IMG/VR virus record: IMGVR_UViG_3300048836_001251
Span: 1-36,307 of that record
DNA: 36,307 nucleotides
Source of the DNA: a virus
Reading direction: 5' to 3' (one strand)
Part shown: positions 4,130 to 27,481 of the stretch, piece after piece
Layout: each line of letters starts with the position of its first letter
How positions within the stretch are numbered: the first letter of the stretch is position 1
Translations under genes and position numbers: made by a program
Notes under the pieces: generated by a model
The model's input: the letters and a program-made list of their open reading frames with translations, nothing else
Told to the model about the DNA's origin: nothing
Databases searched by the model: none

Positions 4130-5329
4130 TTAGTTTTTTGAGTCCCAATCGTCGGCTGGGGCGGCGGCGTTGGACGCGATGGTGAGATGCGCGGTGGTGA
4201 AGTGTTTCCAGTTGAGCTTCTGGCGCTCTTTGGCTGCGATCTTGCGGGCGTATCGTATCCGCTCCGTGATGGCTTTGAGGCCTTCGTCCTTGGCGAGCTG
4301 GCGGAGGATTTCCCAGGGCTTTTCGGTGATGGTGCCGGTGCCTGCCTTGAACTCGAAGATGAGTTTCTTATCGGGCCAATCGAGGCCGTGATGGTCCAGG
4401 ATGATCTTGGCATCCTTTACCAGGACGATGTCCCCGAGCTGGACGCGGTGAACTCCCCGGCGGAAGAGTTGTTCGAGCGCGGCCTTGCGCTCTTGCTCGA
4501 TGCGGGCGCGGAAGACGTTTGTGGTGCAGATGACCATGCCGCACTTGGCGTGATCATAGATGGAGCGGAGGACTTCGAGGCAGGCGAAGAAGGATTCCTT
4601 ACGGTAGGTGTAAATGAGCTGGTGGACTTCATCCAAGATGAGGACTTGGTTTTTTGTTAGAGCGTGTTTGATGCGCTCGATGAGATCGGCGACGTTGCCA
4701 CCAGGGGAGACGCCGACGGCAGCAGCGATGGTGCGGACCATGCCGCCGAGGCCGGATGAGGCGGGGATGCGGACCATGGGTGTGGAGCCGTGGTTGTTGG
4801 CCACGGCGTAGTGTTCCAGCGCCCAGGTCTTGCCGAGGTGGGACGCGCCGTAGATGAAGACGGGGGTGTGTGACTCGCGGGCGAGATCGCAGCCGGTCCA
4901 GATGCGGTTGACGGTGGGTGTGACCACGAAGTCGATGTCGCCGAGCTGGGCGGCAGCGAGTTGATCGCGGCGGAAGCGGCGGATGGCATCGGCGAGTTTG
5001 TCGGGGATGTCGTAGAGGTCGCCGGTGCGGGGATCCCGGTATGCGCCGGTGATGATCTTATCGATGGTCTTGCGGTCGTAGCCGACCTGGGCGGCGAAGT
5101 CGTCGAGGAAGATGGAGCGGTCGATGCACCACATGAAGGCCCAGTGAACGAGTTCCTTTTTCTCGGGTGTGCAGTGGCGAAGGTGCTTGTGCAGGTTATC
5201 TGCCGAGACGCGCCAGGACGCGCGGGCGTTTCCTCCCTGCTGGATCTTGGCGGCTTCGACAAGGGCGATGCGGTCTGTGGTGGTGAGCGCGGTAGGGGCT
5301 TCTTGGTGTGGTGTGGCGGTTGTGTTCAT
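4130..5329 (-). CDS. AAA+ ATPase, transposition target-DNA activator (MuB/TniB-like)
   Basis: A 399-residue AAA+ ATPase. Walker A is at 161-168 (GASHLGKT) and Walker B at 229-234 (VLILDE, followed by VHQL). A sensor-1-like ICTTN is near 267-271, and an arginine-rich helix lies at 280-292. Residues about 40-110 form an N-terminal helical region with a probable HTH (FAAQVGYDRKTIDKIITGAYRDP), as in MuB, whose N-terminal domain binds DNA. Known: MuB coats target DNA, recruits MuA and gives target immunity. It is 27 bases downstream of the transposase in the same operon, the A-B order of Mu. It is longer than MuB (312 aa) because of N- and C-terminal extensions. Confidence 0.85.
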   Translation of the reverse strand: MNTTATPHQEAPTALTTTDRIALVEAAKIQQGGNARASWRVSADNLHKHLRHCTPEKKELVHWAFMWCIDRSIFLDDFAAQVGYDRKTIDKIITGAYRDPRTGDLYDIPDKLADAIRRFRRDQLAAAQLGDIDFVVTPTVNRIWTGCDLARESHTPVFIYGASHLGKTWALEHYAVANNHGSTPMVRIPASSGLGGMVRTIAAAVGVSPGGNVADLIERIKHALTKNQVLILDEVHQLIYTYRKESFFACLEVLRSIYDHAKCGMVICTTNVFRARIEQERKAALEQLFRRGVHRVQLGDIVLVKDAKIILDHHGLDWPDKKLIFEFKAGTGTITEKPWEILRQLAKDEGLKAITERIRYARKIAAKERQKLNWKHFTTAHLTIASNAAAPADDWDSKN

Positions 5330-5356: not shown

Positions 5357-7390
5357 TTAGAGGAGATCTGCGGGGTCGAAGGCGATGGCGGGATCCGGGG
5401 CGTTGTAGGCGAGATCCGAGTCGTCGGCATCGAGCATGGAGGAGGGATCGAGGTTGGCGGCGGCGAGGGCGGTGTCGCGGGCGGAGGGTTGGTTTGCCTG
5501 GCGAAGGATGCGGGTGTTTGCCTTGATGTGAGGGATGCGGCTGAGGCCGTGGCGTGCGGCGGTCTCGGCAACGGAGTCCTTGAAGTCGCGCTCGGCTTCG
5601 CCGTGCATGCGGTGGATGGCATCCACGTCTCCGCGTGTGACGGCCTGGTGGCGCTTGGCGATGCCGAGGAAGCGATGGGTGCGGGCATCGGAGAGATAGA
5701 TGTGATCAGGCTTCCAGGGATTGAGGTGGGCGAGGACTTCGGTGCCGTTGTCCAGGCGGCGGAGGAATCCGTGCTCGTCCTGGTAGGTGGATTTGTAGCG
5801 GAGCTTGCCGAGGCCGGGGATGGTGAAGCCGAAGAGTCCGCCGACGACTTGCTTGATGTGGCCATGCTCGGGGCCTAACAGATCGGGGATAGATTCGAGG
5901 GGAGGCTTGATGAGGCGGGGTGTGTTTGCGAGGAGTGACTCTGCGGGGGAGAGTTTGCGGCGGCGAAGGATGGAGGGATCACAGCGCAGGGCGATGCCGA
6001 GGCCGATGCGGTCGGCCTCAGATGCGTTCTCCAGGGTCTGATGGAGTGGGAGCCATTGGTCGATGAGTTTGGATGGGCGGAACTCTTCGATGACGAGGCC
6101 GCATTCTTCCCATCCTTCCATCTGGTGATCTGTGCGGCAGTTGAGGAGATCGTAGGTGTCCTGAACGGCGAAGACGGCTTCCTGGAGGTCGAGGAATCCG
6201 AGAGAGAGTTTATCGCGCAGGGCTGGGACGACGGAGGCGATGGCGAGGAGGAGTTCGTTTTCATCCTCGCGTCCTTTTAGGGATGCGGGTGCGTCATCGC
6301 GGTTCATGCCAACCTGGCCAGGAAGGTGACCTAGGGCGTTCTGGATGAGTTTACCGATGCCTTCCTTGAGTGCCTTGGCGTTTGGATTGCCTTTGGCTCG
6401 CTCTTTCCACGAGCCGGGAAAGGCCGGGGCACCGGACATGCCGGAGCGGGATACGGTGAGGCGACCGCCGAACCACATGAGGAGTTTTTCCTCCATGGTG
6501 CGGGAGATGGCGGCGGTGCCGTTTTCGACGTTGAAGACGGTGCCATCGGGGTGGACTCCGTAGTCTAACAACCAGTTGACGAGGTAGAGGTGAAAGTCGC
6601 GACCGTTGAGCTGCTTCATTTTGCCGGTATCCATGTCGGGGAGGCGGGGCTTGAGGCCGGGCTTGAAGATGTAGGTGGAGAAGTTGTCGATGGCACCAAA
6701 CTCCAACAGGCGGTAGGCTTTCTGGTAGCCTGGAACATTTACGAGGAAGCTGTGCCACATGTCGTCGAACTGGATCTCGGCGAATGGGTAGGTGCCGACG
6801 CGGGTGGTGATGACTCCGGGGAGGAGTTTCTTGGCGGCGGTGCGGCCTTTGCGTGCGGCGGCGAGTTCGACCTCGTTGGGCATGTGCTGGAGGAGGTTGG
6901 AGTAGGTCCAGCCGCGCGGGACGCGTGATCCTGCGGCGGGAGGCGGGCAGCGGTCGTAGCCTGGGATGGCTATTGTGAGATCACCATTGCGCCAGAGTTG
7001 CCAGTCTCGGATGAGGCGTGCGTAGGCGGGCTTGGCGGCGCGGTCGTTTGACTCGACGCGGGTTTTCCATTCGGTGACAAAGGGAGCGGGGAGACCGATG
7101 GTTTTGGATGAGTCCCGTTTCCAGAACTCGGGGGTGCGGCGGCGGTCGAGAAGGGTGCGCCAGTCGCCGGACTGGGAGTAGCGCTGCCAGGGCTGATAGA
7201 TGGAGTTGAAGTGGAGTCCGGCGGCGGCGGCGATATCCTTGCATGCCTGGACTTTGCCTTTGGAGGAGGAGACGGCCCGCATGACGGAGAGGAGCCAGCG
7301 CACGCGGTCTCGGCTTTTTGCCGGGAGGCGGGCGAAGTCTGCGGCTTCGTCCTGTGGGATCTCGAAGGCGAGTGAGAGGGATGCTTTCAT
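5357..7390 (-). CDS. DDE transposase (MuA-like)
   Basis: A 677-residue transposase, close to MuA (663 aa). Residues about 15-90 look like DNA-binding helices. Residues about 200-355 are the RNase H-like (rve) core: D209/D210 in EIQFDDMW, the second acidic position in FNVENGTAAI (E289), and E343 in KALKEGIGKL. The usual motif at the second position is D-N-G, and here it reads E-N-G. Residues about 515-590 form the beta-barrel domain typical of Mu transposases (LRYKSTYQDEHGF.. TEVLAHLNPWKPDHIYLSD). The C-terminal tail is Asp/Ala-rich and may contact MuB or ClpX, as in MuA. Known role: end pairing, nicking and strand transfer. The start at 7388-7390 gives a normal length. Confidence 0.88.
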   Translation of the reverse strand: MKASLSLAFEIPQDEAADFARLPAKSRDRVRWLLSVMRAVSSSKGKVQACKDIAAAAGLHFNSIYQPWQRYSQSGDWRTLLDRRRTPEFWKRDSSKTIGLPAPFVTEWKTRVESNDRAAKPAYARLIRDWQLWRNGDLTIAIPGYDRCPPPAAGSRVPRGWTYSNLLQHMPNEVELAAARKGRTAAKKLLPGVITTRVGTYPFAEIQFDDMWHSFLVNVPGYQKAYRLLEFGAIDNFSTYIFKPGLKPRLPDMDTGKMKQLNGRDFHLYLVNWLLDYGVHPDGTVFNVENGTAAISRTMEEKLLMWFGGRLTVSRSGMSGAPAFPGSWKERAKGNPNAKALKEGIGKLIQNALGHLPGQVGMNRDDAPASLKGREDENELLLAIASVVPALRDKLSLGFLDLQEAVFAVQDTYDLLNCRTDHQMEGWEECGLVIEEFRPSKLIDQWLPLHQTLENASEADRIGLGIALRCDPSILRRRKLSPAESLLANTPRLIKPPLESIPDLLGPEHGHIKQVVGGLFGFTIPGLGKLRYKSTYQDEHGFLRRLDNGTEVLAHLNPWKPDHIYLSDARTHRFLGIAKRHQAVTRGDVDAIHRMHGEAERDFKDSVAETAARHGLSRIPHIKANTRILRQANQPSARDTALAAANLDPSSMLDADDSDLAYNAPDPAIAFDPADLL

Positions 7391-8244: not shown

Positions 8245-8544
8245 CTATGCGCGGGGGGCGATGGCGAGGGCATCGGGAGGGAATTCGTCGCGGGCGGGAT
8301 CGGAGAGAGGGAGATCCTCTATGGTGAGGAGAACGGCGGGCATGAGTTCGCCCCATGGGGCTTGGACGACGATGAGTGTGGAGCCTGGCATGTGGGCGGT
8401 CTGGGCGCGGAGATCGGCGAGGGTCATGGTGTGAGGGGCTGGTTTGGGGCGGGCGGGTTTTTCCCAGTGAGGGCCGAGGGCGGGGTTGTAGTCCGGGTGG
8501 GCGGGGTGATTTGAGTAGTCGGGATGTGAGGGGTTGAGGGGCAT
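8245..8544 (-). CDS. Hypothetical early protein with DYxNHP motif
   Basis: A 99-residue protein. The N-terminus is Pro/His-rich with HPDYSNHPAHPDYNPAL, a motif that recurs in the protein at 10331-10621 (DYTNHPQSPDYDPT). The C-terminal half (MTLADLRAQTAHMPGSTLIVVQAPWGELMPAVLLT) looks like a small alpha/beta fold. The start ATG is 17 bases from the foot of a perfect inverted repeat in the upstream gap. No family is recognised. Confidence 0.55.
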   Translation of the reverse strand: MPLNPSHPDYSNHPAHPDYNPALGPHWEKPARPKPAPHTMTLADLRAQTAHMPGSTLIVVQAPWGELMPAVLLTIEDLPLSDPARDEFPPDALAIAPRA

Positions 8545-8560
8545 GGCAGTGGAGAGGTGG

Positions 8561-8627
8561 TGGGGCGGATGCGTAGCGGCGCTTTCTCAGACGCAGGCCA
8601 TCTTTACAGGGAGGCCCATCCGCCCCA
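8561..8627. repeat. Long-stem intergenic inverted repeat, copy B
   Basis: An 11-bp perfect stem (TGGGGCGGATG at 8561-8571 with CATCCGCCCCA at 8617-8627) encloses 45 bases. The loop contains GGCC..GGCC (8596-8599/8613-8616), which can stack on the outer stem, and a weaker CGT..ACG hairpin. Its nine core stem bases GGGCGGATG are the same as in the element at 26420-26481. It fills the gap between two minus-strand early genes, directly after a TAA stop. There is no T-tract, so a simple terminator is unlikely. Confidence 0.65.
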
Positions 8628-8631
8628 TTTG

Positions 8632-8835
8632 TTAGGGGAAAGGGTTTTGGGGTTTGGTGATTGGAGGTGTGGCGTTGTAGAGATCGTGAAAGTGGGCGGC
8701 GGCTTGGGACCAGGCATCGCTGGCGATGCGGGAGCGCTGGCGGTCGGTGAGGAGGCCTGCGGTGGCGAAGCCAAGGAGGGTTCCGAGGACAAGGCCGGAG
8801 AAGCAGGCGATGGAGTAGAGGATGATGGGTAACAT
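8632..8835 (-). CDS. Small membrane protein (67 aa)
   Basis: A 67-residue protein, MLPIILYSIACFSGLVLGTLLGFATAGLL, giving one long or two short N-terminal membrane helices, then a polar tail DRQRSRIASDAWSQAAAHFHDLY. Its stop TAA sits inside TGTTAG immediately left of the inverted repeat. The leader CTCCATATCTCCC carries no Shine-Dalgarno. Architecture (hydrophobic N-terminus, basic junction, amphipathic tail) is like the 55-residue protein at 7405-7572. Function unknown. Confidence 0.6.
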   Translation of the reverse strand: MLPIILYSIACFSGLVLGTLLGFATAGLLTDRQRSRIASDAWSQAAAHFHDLYNATPPITKPQNPFP

Positions 8836-12995: not shown

Positions 12996-13422
12996 CACAG
13001 GCGGCGAAGCGGATCTTCACAAGAGCCTTGGCCTTTTTCTGGCCATTGCGGATGGCGTAAAGAATGGCGTCTTCCATGTGGTGTAAATTGATCTCCCGGA
13101 TGCCCAGGGTATCGAACTCGGGCTTGTAGAGATTGAGGGGATGATTGGCGGGAGGCAAGGCAGGCTTGAAGGCCAGGCACTTGAACTGGACGGCAGCGGC
13201 GAGGGCAAAGAGCCAGAGAGAGGTGATGATGACGGCGATGGCCAATGGCCAGTGCGGCGAGGAAGAGGTGAGCTGTGAAAGCGCCCATGCGATGCAGGCC
13301 GCGCCGCCGGTAAAAAGGAAACCAAGCGTGAGATTGGATTCCTGGCGCGTGGTTTCATTGACCCTTTGCTGCCATTGGAAGTTTGCGAGCCCTTGCTGCT
13401 CCGCGTAATCGATGAGATCCAT
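12940..13422 (-). CDS. Membrane protein of unknown function
   Basis: A 160-residue protein on the strand opposite to its neighbours. The N-terminal 30 residues are amphipathic (MDLIDYAEQQGLANFQWQQRVNETTRQ). Three hydrophobic stretches follow: about 32-50 (LGFLFTGGAACIAWALSQL), 57-78 (WPLAIAVIITSLWLFALAAAV) and 140-157 (ACATPLVFLAAWYLAAL). A cytoplasmic or periplasmic helical segment lies between the second and third (LYKPEFDTLGIREINLHHMEDAI). I chose the ATG at 13420-13422. Its reverse orientation within an otherwise rightward region suggests expression in the lysogen, for example for superinfection exclusion. That is inference. Confidence 0.65.
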   Translation of the reverse strand: MDLIDYAEQQGLANFQWQQRVNETTRQESNLTLGFLFTGGAACIAWALSQLTSSSPHWPLAIAVIITSLWLFALAAAVQFKCLAFKPALPPANHPLNLYKPEFDTLGIREINLHHMEDAILYAIRNGQKKAKALVKIRFAACATPLVFLAAWYLAALRCG

Positions 13423-22890: not shown

Positions 22891-23268
22891 ATGTCTCAAA
22901 AAGAAAGCAAAGGTTACTATGCACTGCCCAATTTTACGCAGGGCGACACGTTTGACGGTCGGGAGATCGCGAGGATCACCCAGGGCGGAGAACCTCTTAC
23001 GATATACAAGGCGGCCATGGAGCTGCGAAAAAAATCGGACGGATCTCTCGTCTGGCGCTGGCAAACATGGGGTGAGGCTCCGAATGCGGAAATCACTGGC
23101 GACAACAATGCCATGACGCTGCACCCGGTCCACGAAAGTATCACCGCACAATGGCCGCTCGGGCTCATGGAATACGATGTCGAGGTTTGGTTTAGCCCGG
23201 ACACCGACAAAAAAACCATTATGGGCGGACCGATGAAAATCGAGAAAGGCACCACCGCGAACTCCTAA
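22891..23268 (+). CDS. Beta-rich structural protein (125 aa), fibre block
   Basis: A 125-residue protein with alternating strands ([68 protein letters not shown]). It has the flavour of an Ig-like or BppU-type N-terminal domain found before collagen-like baseplate/fibre proteins. I chose the ATG at 22891, which follows CTAACAAAAGAAGCC; a longer upstream start overlaps the previous gene. It is 6 bases from the collagen-like gene. Confidence 0.55.
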
Positions 23269-23274
23269 CAGGCG

Positions 23275-24303
23275 ATGATCGAGATCCTCACACCCGCTGG
23301 CACCAGCATCACCGTCGAGATCGGCGGGGTGATGGGGCCGCGTGGGTTTACGGGGGAGACAGGGCCGCAAGGGCCACAAGGCATCCAAGGCGAGACGGGT
23401 GCGCAGGGGCCAGAAGGCCCGCAGGGTATCCAGGGGGAGACGGGAGCGACAGGCGCGACAGGTGCGCAAGGACCACAGGGTGAGCAGGGGCTCAAGGGGG
23501 ATAAGGGCGACAAGGGGGATACTGGAGAGCAAGGGCTCAAGGGAGACACTGGAGACACGGGGCCTGCTGGCTCCGATGCCACGGTGAATGCCGAAAATGT
23601 CGCCAGTGTGCTCGACGCGGCGACCGAGGCCACCGAGCCGGAGGATGCCAACAAGATCCCGCTGCTCGTGGCCGGGGCGTTGCGGTGGGTGTCGTTTGCC
23701 AATCTGTGGACGTTGATCGTCACCAAAATCGGCGCGATCACCAGCATCACAGCGGGAGGCGTGTGGTCGTTCGGATCGCCCACCCGCCCGACATCCAGCG
23801 CCACTGGAGCCCCATTATCTAACAGCCTCATCATGCTGAGCGACGGAGACGCGAGATACGGCCCCGTGATCGTCGCAAACTCCACCGGAGTGACAGATGC
23901 ACCAGACACAACCTATGTTGATGTCGCCGGATGCACGAGCATCCAACTGGAGGCAAACACCCGCTACGAAATCGGGACGTATGCGTATTTCAACTGCATC
24001 CCCGGCTGGTTTTTGCGGCTGGTTTTCTCGGCGGATTTGTATGGCACGTCCGGGCGTCGTCCCGCGTCAAACATGGGACAAGGCTCCGCGCTGCCGCAAC
24101 AAGCGCAATTTATCGGCGACTTGCGGACGATCCAGTTAGGCACGCGGGCAGTCAACACTGGAGGAAATCAGGAAGGCTACGGGGGGCAGATCATGATTCT
24201 AACAACAGCCACCGCTCCGACCGTCACCCTGCAATTTTCCAACACCGGGGCGGGCACGGCGAATCTGACTTACGCAACAGTGATTATCCGTAAACTATCA
24301 TGA
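23275..24303 (+). CDS. Collagen-like fibre protein
   Basis: A 342-residue protein. Residues 21-98 are 26 uninterrupted G-X-Y triplets ([12 protein letters not shown] ...), a bacterial/phage collagen triple helix of roughly 78 residues, rich in Gln, Glu and Lys and lacking Cys. Residues 100-170 are a trimerising, partly helical section. Residues 190-342 are a beta-rich tip ([20 protein letters not shown]..., [18 protein letters not shown]). Known: such repeats form slender rods in tail or head fibres. It opens a block of at least four similarly sized fibre-like genes. Its stop overlaps a 22-codon frame by ATGA. Confidence 0.8.
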
Positions 24304-25506: not shown

Positions 25507-25775
25507 GCCTGGCCACACAAATCCTCGATGCGAACTCGGTGCGCCTGTGGGAGACGCCGGTGCGGGCGTTGATCAACGCAGCGGCCACGGCTGCGGCGCA
25601 GGATCCGGCTGTGGCGGCGGCGCTGGTGCTGCTGCAAGACAACGGGATTTTCACAGGGCTGCCACTGGCAAGTGATGCGGACATCCCCGCAAAAATCGCG
25701 CTGCTCCAGCAGGATGCGGAGTTCATGGCGGCGCTCGATCTCGTTACCTCCACCCTCATTGAAAACCTATCATGA
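25503..25775 (+). CDS. Small fibre-block protein (90 aa)
   Basis: A 90-residue, Ala-rich helical protein (LINAAATAAAQDPAVAAALVLLQDNGIFTG, ADIPAKIALLQQDAEFMAALDL). Overlaps both neighbours by four bases. May be a chaperone or oligomerisation partner for the 294-residue protein. No family is recognised. Confidence 0.5.
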   Translation: MSLATQILDANSVRLWETPVRALINAAATAAAQDPAVAAALVLLQDNGIFTGLPLASDADIPAKIALLQQDAEFMAALDLVTSTLIENLS

Positions 25776-26407
25776 CCACGCTCACCACCACTCTCCCACT
25801 GCCCTACCCCGTGACGCTGGATCTGCGGATCCCGAGCGGCCTGCGCCCGCGCGTGGTATCCAAAGCCACCACCGACTCGGGCGAGCCGAGCGATGAGCCA
25901 CCACTGGAGCCCGTTGTGCCGCATGAGTTTGCGGAGTTTCCATTCCTGCTCTATGTGGACGGGCACGCCCGGACGATCTCCGCCCAACTCCCGCCGCTGG
26001 CCAAGCCGCTGCCGCTGTATGGGCCGCAGGATTTCGCGGCGGCCGCAGGCGATAGCATGGAGGACCATGTGGCCCGCGCGCTGGCTCTCCTGGCACCGGA
26101 TGTGCAGGGCACGCTGCAAACCCTGGCCGATGGCCACGAGATGCCGGAGCTGCCACCCCGCGTGCCGCGCGAGATCGCCAACTGGCGGGCGCGTGCGATC
26201 CTGGAACTCCAAGGGCTGCTGCCGACGGTGGACGGCATGATCGCGGCGATGACCGGGCCGGAGGCCATCGTGGTGCGCAATGCCTGGTATGCGGGAGCAC
26301 CGCTCGCGCGGCGCGGGGCCACCGTCACCGCCCTCGCCTCCCAGCTCGGACTCACGCCGGATCAAATCGATGCCATGTTCATCGCAGCCGAAAATCTCCA
26401 TGTATAA
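25772..26407 (+). CDS. Tail-fibre-assembly-like protein
   Basis: A 211-residue protein. Residues about 130-211 (REIANWRARAILELQGLLPTVDGMIAAMTGPEAIVVRNAWYAGAPLARRGATVTALASQLGLTPDQIDAMFIAA) match a common C-terminal module of phage tail-fibre assembly proteins: W-R-A-K/R-A-V-L-E-L..GL...V...W......R.G..V..LA..LGLT..Q.D.LF. Residues 1-120 are Pro-rich with a beta-type section. Known: such chaperones help fibres fold or attach. It closes the fibre block and is followed by the folded element at 26420-26481. Confidence 0.6.
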   Translation: MTTLTTTLPLPYPVTLDLRIPSGLRPRVVSKATTDSGEPSDEPPLEPVVPHEFAEFPFLLYVDGHARTISAQLPPLAKPLPLYGPQDFAAAAGDSMEDHVARALALLAPDVQGTLQTLADGHEMPELPPRVPREIANWRARAILELQGLLPTVDGMIAAMTGPEAIVVRNAWYAGAPLARRGATVTALASQLGLTPDQIDAMFIAAENLHV

Positions 26408-26419
26408 CCCCAACACAAT

Positions 26420-26481
26420 GCGGGCGGATGCTCTGCTCGGTAGCAGACAGGATTTGGGTTTCCTGCCCACCATCCGCCCGC
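26420..26481 (+). other. Strongly folded intergenic element (predicted three-way junction)
   Basis: Outer perfect 11-bp stem GCGGGCGGATG (26420-26430) / CATCCGCCCGC (26471-26481). Inside are hairpin TCTGCT-CGGT-AGCAGA (26432-26447, 6 bp) and directly after it hairpin CAGGA-TTTGGGTT-TCCTG (26448-26465, 5 bp), then CCCAC unpaired. No T-tract follows. It is almost the whole 96-base gap between the fibre-assembly gene and the next head gene, and the start codon at 26504 lies 22 bases downstream. Stem core identical to 8561-8627. Confidence 0.65.
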
Positions 26482-26503
26482 GCCTCTCTCCATCAACTAA
26501 CAC

Positions 26504-27481
26504 ATGACCACCGCCGAACAAATCGCCGCCATCCGCGCATTGCTGCCCACCACGCTGGGGAGCGCGGAGCTGCGCGAGCAGATCGCATCGGACATCCGTG
26601 TGCGGAGTGTGTTTGTGAGCCGGGCGTCGAACGCTGTGTTTCTGAGCAACCTCAAGGGCCTGGTGGAGAAGCTCGCCGCCGGTGACATGGACCATGCGAG
26701 CGCACGGCTCGCGCTGCGCCAGATCCTCAGCGAACTGGGCTACACGCCCGAAGGTGGATTTCCGGAAGTGGAAGCCGGTGCTGTGCCTCCTGCGGAACCG
26801 GGCAGCTTGCAGGATCTCACCAGCACGCGCCGCCTTGATCTCATTCTGGAAACGCAGGTGGACCTGGTGCGCGGCCGTGGCATGCAGATCCGGGGCATGG
26901 AGCCTACGGTGCTGCGGATGTGGCCGGCATGGGAGCTGGTGCGTGCGATCCAGACAGCGGTGCCACGCGATTGGCAGAGCCGCTGGGTGGTAGCCGGTGG
27001 CACGCTGGTGGACGGCGGCCGGATGATTGCGCTGAAGGCTGATCCCATCTGGGGTGAGCTGGGATCCAGCGGAAATTTTGAGGATGCACTGGATGTGGAT
27101 TTTCCACCGTTTGCCTTTAATAGCGGCATGCGGTGGACACCGATCACCCGCTCGGAAGTGAGCCGCCTCGGCATCACCGGCCCAGATGGGCAAAGCGTCG
27201 AGGAGTGGCAGGCGGAAGACCGGAATATTCTAACGGGCACACAAAGCGGACTACCTGCACCCCAGGTGAGCGTGAAGAAGGTGGATCCAGATCTGCGACG
27301 CGAGCTGGAAAAGCAAGGGGTGAGCATCGTGGATGACACGGCGACGACACCGGGCAATGAGGAAAATCTGCGCAAGCAACTCGAAGAGCGGGCGGCGGCG
27401 CGGGAAGCGCGTGCGGCAGAGCGGATGCGCAAATCCATCGAGGAGCGGCAGGAGGAATACGAAAGGAGGCACCCATCATGA
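26504..27481 (+). CDS. Minor head / head morphogenesis-like protein (tentative)
   Basis: A 325-residue protein. The N-terminal 60 residues (EQIAAIRALLPTTLGSAELREQIASDIRVRSVFVSRASNAVFLSNLKG) are helical. A central globular part contains SLQDLTSTRRLDLILETQVDLVRGRGMQIRGM and RMWPAWELVRAIQTAVPRDWQSRW. The C-terminal 70 residues are charged, helical and end in EERQEEYERRHPS. Its place before a gpG-like gene is that of Mu F/gp30, but motif support is thin. The stop overlaps the next start; a Shine-Dalgarno AAAGGAGG for that next gene is encoded in its last codons. Confidence 0.5.
   Translation: MTTAEQIAAIRALLPTTLGSAELREQIASDIRVRSVFVSRASNAVFLSNLKGLVEKLAAGDMDHASARLALRQILSELGYTPEGGFPEVEAGAVPPAEPGSLQDLTSTRRLDLILETQVDLVRGRGMQIRGMEPTVLRMWPAWELVRAIQTAVPRDWQSRWVVAGGTLVDGGRMIALKADPIWGELGSSGNFEDALDVDFPPFAFNSGMRWTPITRSEVSRLGITGPDGQSVEEWQAEDRNILTGTQSGLPAPQVSVKKVDPDLRRELEKQGVSIVDDTATTPGNEENLRKQLEERAAAREARAAERMRKSIEERQEEYERRHPS

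Follow-up and report, generated by a model that had tools for sequence, protein, structure and literature searches.

A conserved intergenic RNA element of C4-like architecture in phages of Verrucomicrobiota-type bacteria

Positions 26420-26481 of a 36,307-base virus record, analysed at its full length and termed here the window, form a real, evolutionarily conserved RNA element which is intergenic in several phages of Verrucomicrobiota-type bacteria. The window, which has Mu-like transposition genes, a terminase and a Mu-type portal, carries the element twice (Table 1). Copy 1 is typical. Copy 2, to which 26420-26481 belongs, is the most divergent member of the family, being without the GNAA loop and having a shorter joiner. 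The best explanation, with a probability put at about 0.5, is that the element is a C4-like regulatory RNA which would be processed by RNase P from a polycistronic phage mRNA, and whose loops would act on a conserved partner.

Fold, family and covariation

An earlier, sequence-only reading of this DNA had described an 11-bp outer stem enclosing two hairpins, one of 6 bp with a tetraloop and one of 5 bp with an 8-base loop, and this description is exact in coordinates and shape. The minimum free energy of 26420-26481 is -34.6 kcal/mol, against -21.4 (sd 3.2) in dinucleotide shuffles (z -4.1, with 0/200 as good); the opposite strand folds with a z of -5.4. As that reading also stated, the first ATG after the stem, at 26504, is 22 bases on and no T-run intervenes. 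Its proposal of a family with 8561-8627 was right as well, since this is a true sister copy, though one whose sense strand is minus: the covariance model R1 gives copy 1 89.5 bits on the minus strand and 13.8 on the plus strand. For copy 2 the figures are 53 bits on plus and 18.9 on minus. Copy 2 is a training row of both R1 and a second model, R2. The covarying outer pair of its stem is C-G and not G-C.

Table 1. Coordinates of the two elements and of neighbouring genes in the window
Feature	Position	Strand	Evidence or remark
C4-like RNA element copy 2, divergent, whole model span	26412..26494	+	R1 53 bits, E 1.7e-12; R2 47.6 bits
Copy 2 outer stem P1, 5' strand (GCGGGCGGATG)	26420..26430	+	fold, covariation
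Copy 2 outer stem P1, 3' strand	26471..26481	+	fold
Copy 2 hairpin P2, 6 bp, CGGT loop	26432..26447	+	fold, alignment
Copy 2 hairpin P3, 5 bp, 8-base loop	26448..26465	+	fold, alignment
Copy 2 joiner J3/1, position of a' in P1 C4	26466..26470	+	fold, comparison with P1
GCC right behind P1 of copy 2 (RCC, tRNA-3'-end-like)	26482..26484	+	RCC here in 14/17 elements
Gene upstream of copy 2, phrog_6034, function not known	25772..26407	+	TAA 12 bases before P1
Gene downstream of copy 2	26504..27481	+	homologues in 9 other phages, element absent at that junction
C4-like RNA element copy 1, typical, whole model span	8548..8635	-	R1 89.5 bits, R2 88.6 bits; training row of both
Copy 1 P1, 5' strand (GGGGCGGATG on minus)	8617..8626	-	fold, alignment
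Copy 1 P1, 3' strand; then ACC at 8561-8559 on minus	8562..8571	-	fold, alignment, RCC count
Gene immediately downstream of copy 1	8245..8544	-	G002 homologue likewise preceded by element
MuA-like transposase, 1.2 kb downstream of copy 1	5357..7390	-	phrog_310, E 2.2e-8
MuB-like transposition ATPase	4130..5329	-	phrog_296, E 1.9e-29

Relatives were sought by scanning the stem pattern (GGCGGATG...CATCCGCC) through viral contigs. The majority of matches were chance palindromes; eight have flanks and inner hairpins in common with both window copies. R1 was built from ten aligned sequences, namely the two window copies and eight further phage records. In this starting alignment 11 of the 21 pairs had changed on both sides, a result matched by 0/500 shuffles, whilst the outer stems of the seeds are near-invariant because the stem pattern selected them. 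A 17-row alignment, A3, was made of window-type elements from 14 records: the window, G004 and G007 (two each), and G001, G002, G003, G005, G006, G008, L344, L152, L136, L425 and the bacterial genome G099 (one each), the two identical copies in G099 being entered as one. The sequence-only reading had staked the element on covariation in relatives and on folding against dinucleotide shuffles, and both are found, the latter as given above. In A3, 15/21 pairs show double changes, 92.7% of cells pair, and covariation is 0.398 compared with 0.105 in shuffled alignments (0/500 as good).

R1 also recognises copies outside its training set, giving 73.6 bits for L152, 71.7 for L136, 69.1 for G004b, 66.7 for L344, 62.7 for L425, 56.6 for G007b and 53.6 for G099. 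In copies found later, by the model or by different patterns, the outer stem truly varies, reading UUUU/AAAA in L344, GGGGGATG/CATCCCCC in G099, GGGGAGGGTG/CACCCTCCCC in G004b and GAGGCGGACG/CGTCCGCCTC in G007b. Some members fold moderately, the single-sequence fold of L123 having a z of -1.25, and the case for the element therefore rests on covariation and not on energy alone. R2 finds seven outgroup elements, absent from its training, at 31-47 bits, a score which is partly selection because they were found via the shared stem pattern. In the outgroup 93.8% of cells pair and the inner hairpins covary, whilst 8/10 P1 pairs never vary; the alignment was fitted to the model and therefore leans towards the structure. 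Same-pattern palindromes judged to be chance mostly score below about 27 bits.

Several matches were set aside. L409 and L465 (29.5 and 25.1 bits), which are probable members, and L381 (36.4 bits) were excluded from all counts, and the weak matches G016 22903-22982 and G007 13122-13176 were kept out of the family. L409:4269-4330 (-) and L465:4808-4869 (-) stand before a gene starting MPTIAEI, as does the element at G007:27643-27729. The match at G007:13122-13176 (+) is a simple strong hairpin (GGCCGGGGCGGAGG...CCTCCGCCCCGGC) lying between a stop codon and the next ATG, perhaps a relative that is degenerate or resembles a terminator. In the whole window, GGCGGATG occurs 115 times at one mismatch or fewer against 73.7 expected from shuffles, mostly on the plus strand, which is probably a matter of codon use.

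Position between genes and distribution

The position of the elements was scored by a simple rule: with open reading frames of at least 45 codons, a stop codon had to lie next to the model start and an ATG reading frame had to begin within 100 bases downstream, a rule which may count spurious reading frames in GC-rich DNA. A same-strand stop codon stands at the element start in 13/17 cases and a same-strand ATG reading frame follows in 15/17, with both in 12/17. On the antisense strands the counts fall to 5/17, 7/17 and 3/17, respectively, and at random places (n=3,400) the frequencies are 12.0%, 49.5% and 5.4%.

The genes which flank the element differ between phages. In 6/14 records (window, G002, G004, G006, G008 and L344) the element is followed on its own strand, at a distance of 1.1-2.7 kb, by a MuA-like gene, a phrog_3657 gene is directly downstream in G001 and L152, and a RecT/Bet gene in L136, so that genes of one of these three kinds follow the element in 9/14 records. 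No antirepressor gene was recognised downstream of the elements in the 14 records. The gene immediately downstream of copy 1 shares 55% identity over 60 residues with its syntenic partner in G002. Near copy 2 a collagen-like tail-fibre gene is found at 23275-24303. The sequence-only reading had placed the element at the border of a fibre cassette, which is true here and not true in general, as most copies other than copy 2 are in early operons. It had also pointed to boundary junctions in relatives. In nine other phages with a homologue of the gene after copy 2 no element stands in front of it, as judged from the sequences by eye, and R2 likewise found none there in the records on which it was run. 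The element at 26412-26494 is an extra at that junction.

The host of the window is probably a member of the Verrucomicrobiota, to judge by terminase relatives, which are present at E<=1e-30 in 57 of 387 genomes of that phylum, the only one searched, with a best identity of 61%. The distribution of the element is sporadic. In ten terminase-related Verrucomicrobiota prophage regions no credible element was found and one match was at chance level; in a separate set of ten terminase relatives, several of whose records are fragments, nine gave no match at E<=0.01 and one, G016, a weak one. When R1 was run over 288 Verrucomicrobiota genomes, six gave matches at E<=0.01, of which G099 alone was convincing, in a scan of low sensitivity because at most 15 candidates were scored per genome. 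Over 62 genomes of its order R2 found G099 and no other. Among the best 60 of the stem-pattern matches listed for genome contigs there were just palindromes judged by eye to be chance. Known phage records held no useful match to the element and none to the transposase, and C4 antisense RNA was not found together with Verrucomicrobiota in the literature searched. Clustering of the reading frames of 13 phages with the element and five without it, as a search for a protein partner, gave no gene that all of them share; the most widespread cluster was in 7/13. In G099 the two identical copies of the element lie in a 6.4-kb stretch which occurs twice at 99.9% identity, 34.9 kb apart (L401:8223-14582 and L402:11083-17445), the second running to the contig end; this looks like a phage-length repeat, perhaps a tandem prophage or the assembly of a circular phage.

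Comparison with C4 and the search for target sites

Among 11 member loci a single Rfam match was obtained, a c4-2 RNA at L100 with 41.5 bits (cut-off 41), which pointed to the C4 clan. This RNA (L100:372-535, minus strand), one of the outgroup elements, begins immediately after a tRNA gene, and a small HTH/excisionase-like reading frame comes next. The c4-2 family (RF02944) is like the window family in its three-way junction and in a P2 which has a bulge of 2 bases on its 5' side and is capped by a GNAA tetraloop; in the L100 alignment its outer stem has an internal loop, which the window family lacks. C4 itself is a textbook immunity RNA, an antisense RNA of phages P1 and P7 (RF01695, clan CL00128). 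In the P1 version (AF234172) the fold combines an outer stem with two hairpins, the first having a UUCG loop and the second a loop of 9 bases, followed by a joiner of 7 bases and then ACC. By inspection of the sequence, the joiner (a') corresponds to the annotated a target sites and the 9-base loop (b') to the b sites. All these parts recur in the window family in unchanged order, as an outer stem, a tetraloop P2, P3, a short joiner and RCC. The family also shares the early-operon setting and conforms to the three-way-junction layout of C4 (P1 stem, tetraloop P2, P3 loop of 8-9 bases, short J3/1).

There are also differences. Most window-type elements have a GNAA tetraloop where P1 C4 has UUCG, the P3 loop is of 8 bases, the joiner of about 5-7 bases and the outer stem is shorter; some phages carry up to two copies, and neither a1/b1 or a2/b2 sites nor an antirepressor have been recognised. 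The loops, moreover, are conserved between phages: P3 loops are mostly C-U-N-R-R-W-A-A, as judged by eye from the alignment, the opposite of the variable specificity loops of C4.

RCC stands at the stem end in 14/17 elements (nine scored by script and five in which R itself can close the stem), being absent from G005, G006 and L344, whilst other offsets give at most 1/17. Together with GG at the stem start, it is compatible with a 5' end made by RNase P. A CCA-like 3' element of C4 is said, from work by Hartmann in 1995, to matter for the RNase P cut. According to a published account (PMC5320573), the cut that RNase P makes in C4 falls at the outer stem's 5' end, and the b' loop covers part of ribosome-binding sites.

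Rfam does not place the element. RF01695 scored none of 20 records above its cut-off, window-type elements included; RF02944 passed one of the 20, that of L100, and matched none of the window-type elements tested. A scan of the whole window at gathering thresholds and one of 26300-26600 at E<=10 each gave 0 matches, and Rfam 15 at E<=5 over 12 element loci gave nothing relevant. A ribozyme or riboswitch of known type was rejected for want of any Rfam match. The sequence-only reading had proposed a structured RNA, whether ribozyme, regulator or processing site; a structured RNA, as regulator or processing site, is borne out, and a known self-cleaving ribozyme is unsupported. Since there is no Rfam match and R1 gives the C4 of P1 0.2 bits, common descent with C4 is not shown.

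Target sites were sought as paired a/b sites complementary to the joiner and the P3 loop, with the element masked and shuffled loops as controls. In P1 the search recovered a2/b2 as the top match (1/40 shuffled as good) and a1/b1 as the third. No a/b pair was found near the element in any of the 17 window-type elements, 48 to 196 of 200 shuffled controls being as good. Record-wide, the best cases were G007b (1/40), L344 (3/40), G005 (4/40) and L425 (5/40), with the others at 17-39/40; because 17 tests were made, none of these matches is counted as a target. Pairing of loops with flanks in 24 elements, over 14 permutation tests, gave a best p of 0.0245 (P3 loop against 5' flank, 0-60), which is not significant for 14 tests. 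As the Rfam and target-site tests both fail, the element is not assigned to C4.

Two of the seven outgroup elements, L154:2775-2862 (-) and L130:788-875 (+), are C4-type antisense systems, with paired sites upstream and at a downstream ribosome-binding site. In L154 the sites upstream of the element are the top match (0/40) and a pair ending at AAGTAGGAG before an ATG is third; in L130 the top pair is again upstream (0/40), and a downstream pair ending at GCGAAGGAG is seen by eye. Local a/b tests gave 0/200 shuffled loops as good for each. The Rfam C4 and c4-2 models left both loci unscored.

Proposed function and alternatives

In the proposed mechanism both window elements would encode a C4-like regulatory RNA of roughly 65 bases, transcribed within a polycistronic mRNA of the phage. 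Its outer stem and RCC would mimic the acceptor end of a tRNA, such that RNase P would cut just 5' of the stem. This cut would fall behind the upstream stop codon and set free a compact three-way-junction RNA, in which the P3 loop and the J3/1 joiner, by analogy with P1 C4, would be free to bind a partner. Since the loops and joiner are conserved and have no convincing match in their own genomes, a conserved RNA or protein of the host is the probable partner. Copy 1, in an early operon before the transposition genes, would tune early expression or the choice between lysis and lysogeny; copy 2 may play the same role for the tail region or be a stray copy.

tRNAs punctuate some transcripts, and the main rival, which is considered rather unlikely, is that the element is an intercistronic processing signal, whose tRNA-like end lets RNase P cut the mRNA between genes and whose freed piece has no partner. 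The tight fit between stop and start codons, the frequency of RCC, the differing genes on either side and the lack of cis targets would all be accommodated. However, the P2 tetraloop and the P3 loop are conserved beyond the needs of cleavage, and as none of the ten related Verrucomicrobiota prophage regions carries the element, such operons do not generally require it. Still less probable is a cis-acting leader for transcription or translation which is not released, either an antiterminator like the put RNA of HK022 or a leader bound by protein. The put RNA occurs in early phage transcripts and, like the window element, is structured and about 65 bases long; it differs in having two stem-loops and no enclosing stem. 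The location of the element upstream of MuA-like genes, and directly before the RecT/Bet and phrog_3657 genes, suits a leader, yet its usual place is mid-operon, right behind a stop codon and away from a promoter, and RCC has no role in that model.

A DNA element, be it a cruciform recombination site, as the sequence-only reading had offered, an integron attC-like site or a MITE moving between gene junctions, is very improbable. It would account for the sporadic occurrence, the element being present in one of ten phages with the 26504-27481 gene or its homologue, and for the two copies at different junctions in the window, G004 and G007. Against it, the model scores are strand-asymmetric, the sense orientation is fixed and follows the coding strand, and the mostly GNAA-type loops and the covariation fit RNA. 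Many palindromes of GGCGGATG in the collections are indeed due to chance, but a chance hairpin here is refuted by the covariation and by homologues which the models find far beyond chance.

More tentatively, the element may stand for a regulatory RNA class that is new and belongs to Verrucomicrobiota phages. Such a class would keep the C4 chassis of an RNase-P-released three-way junction, would have exchanged self-specific antisense loops for fixed, conserved ones directed at a common partner, for example an RNA or protein of the host, and would be dispersed among gene junctions, with no more than two copies in a phage. The L130 and L154 loci mean that the Rfam C4 models miss clear C4 systems. 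The element itself offers a compact test system. A published survey (PMC2864571) records C4 for Proteobacteria and phages. A C4-shaped RNA with fixed and not variable loops in the phages of a distant phylum points either to convergence on a three-way junction released by RNase P or to a family of much greater age.
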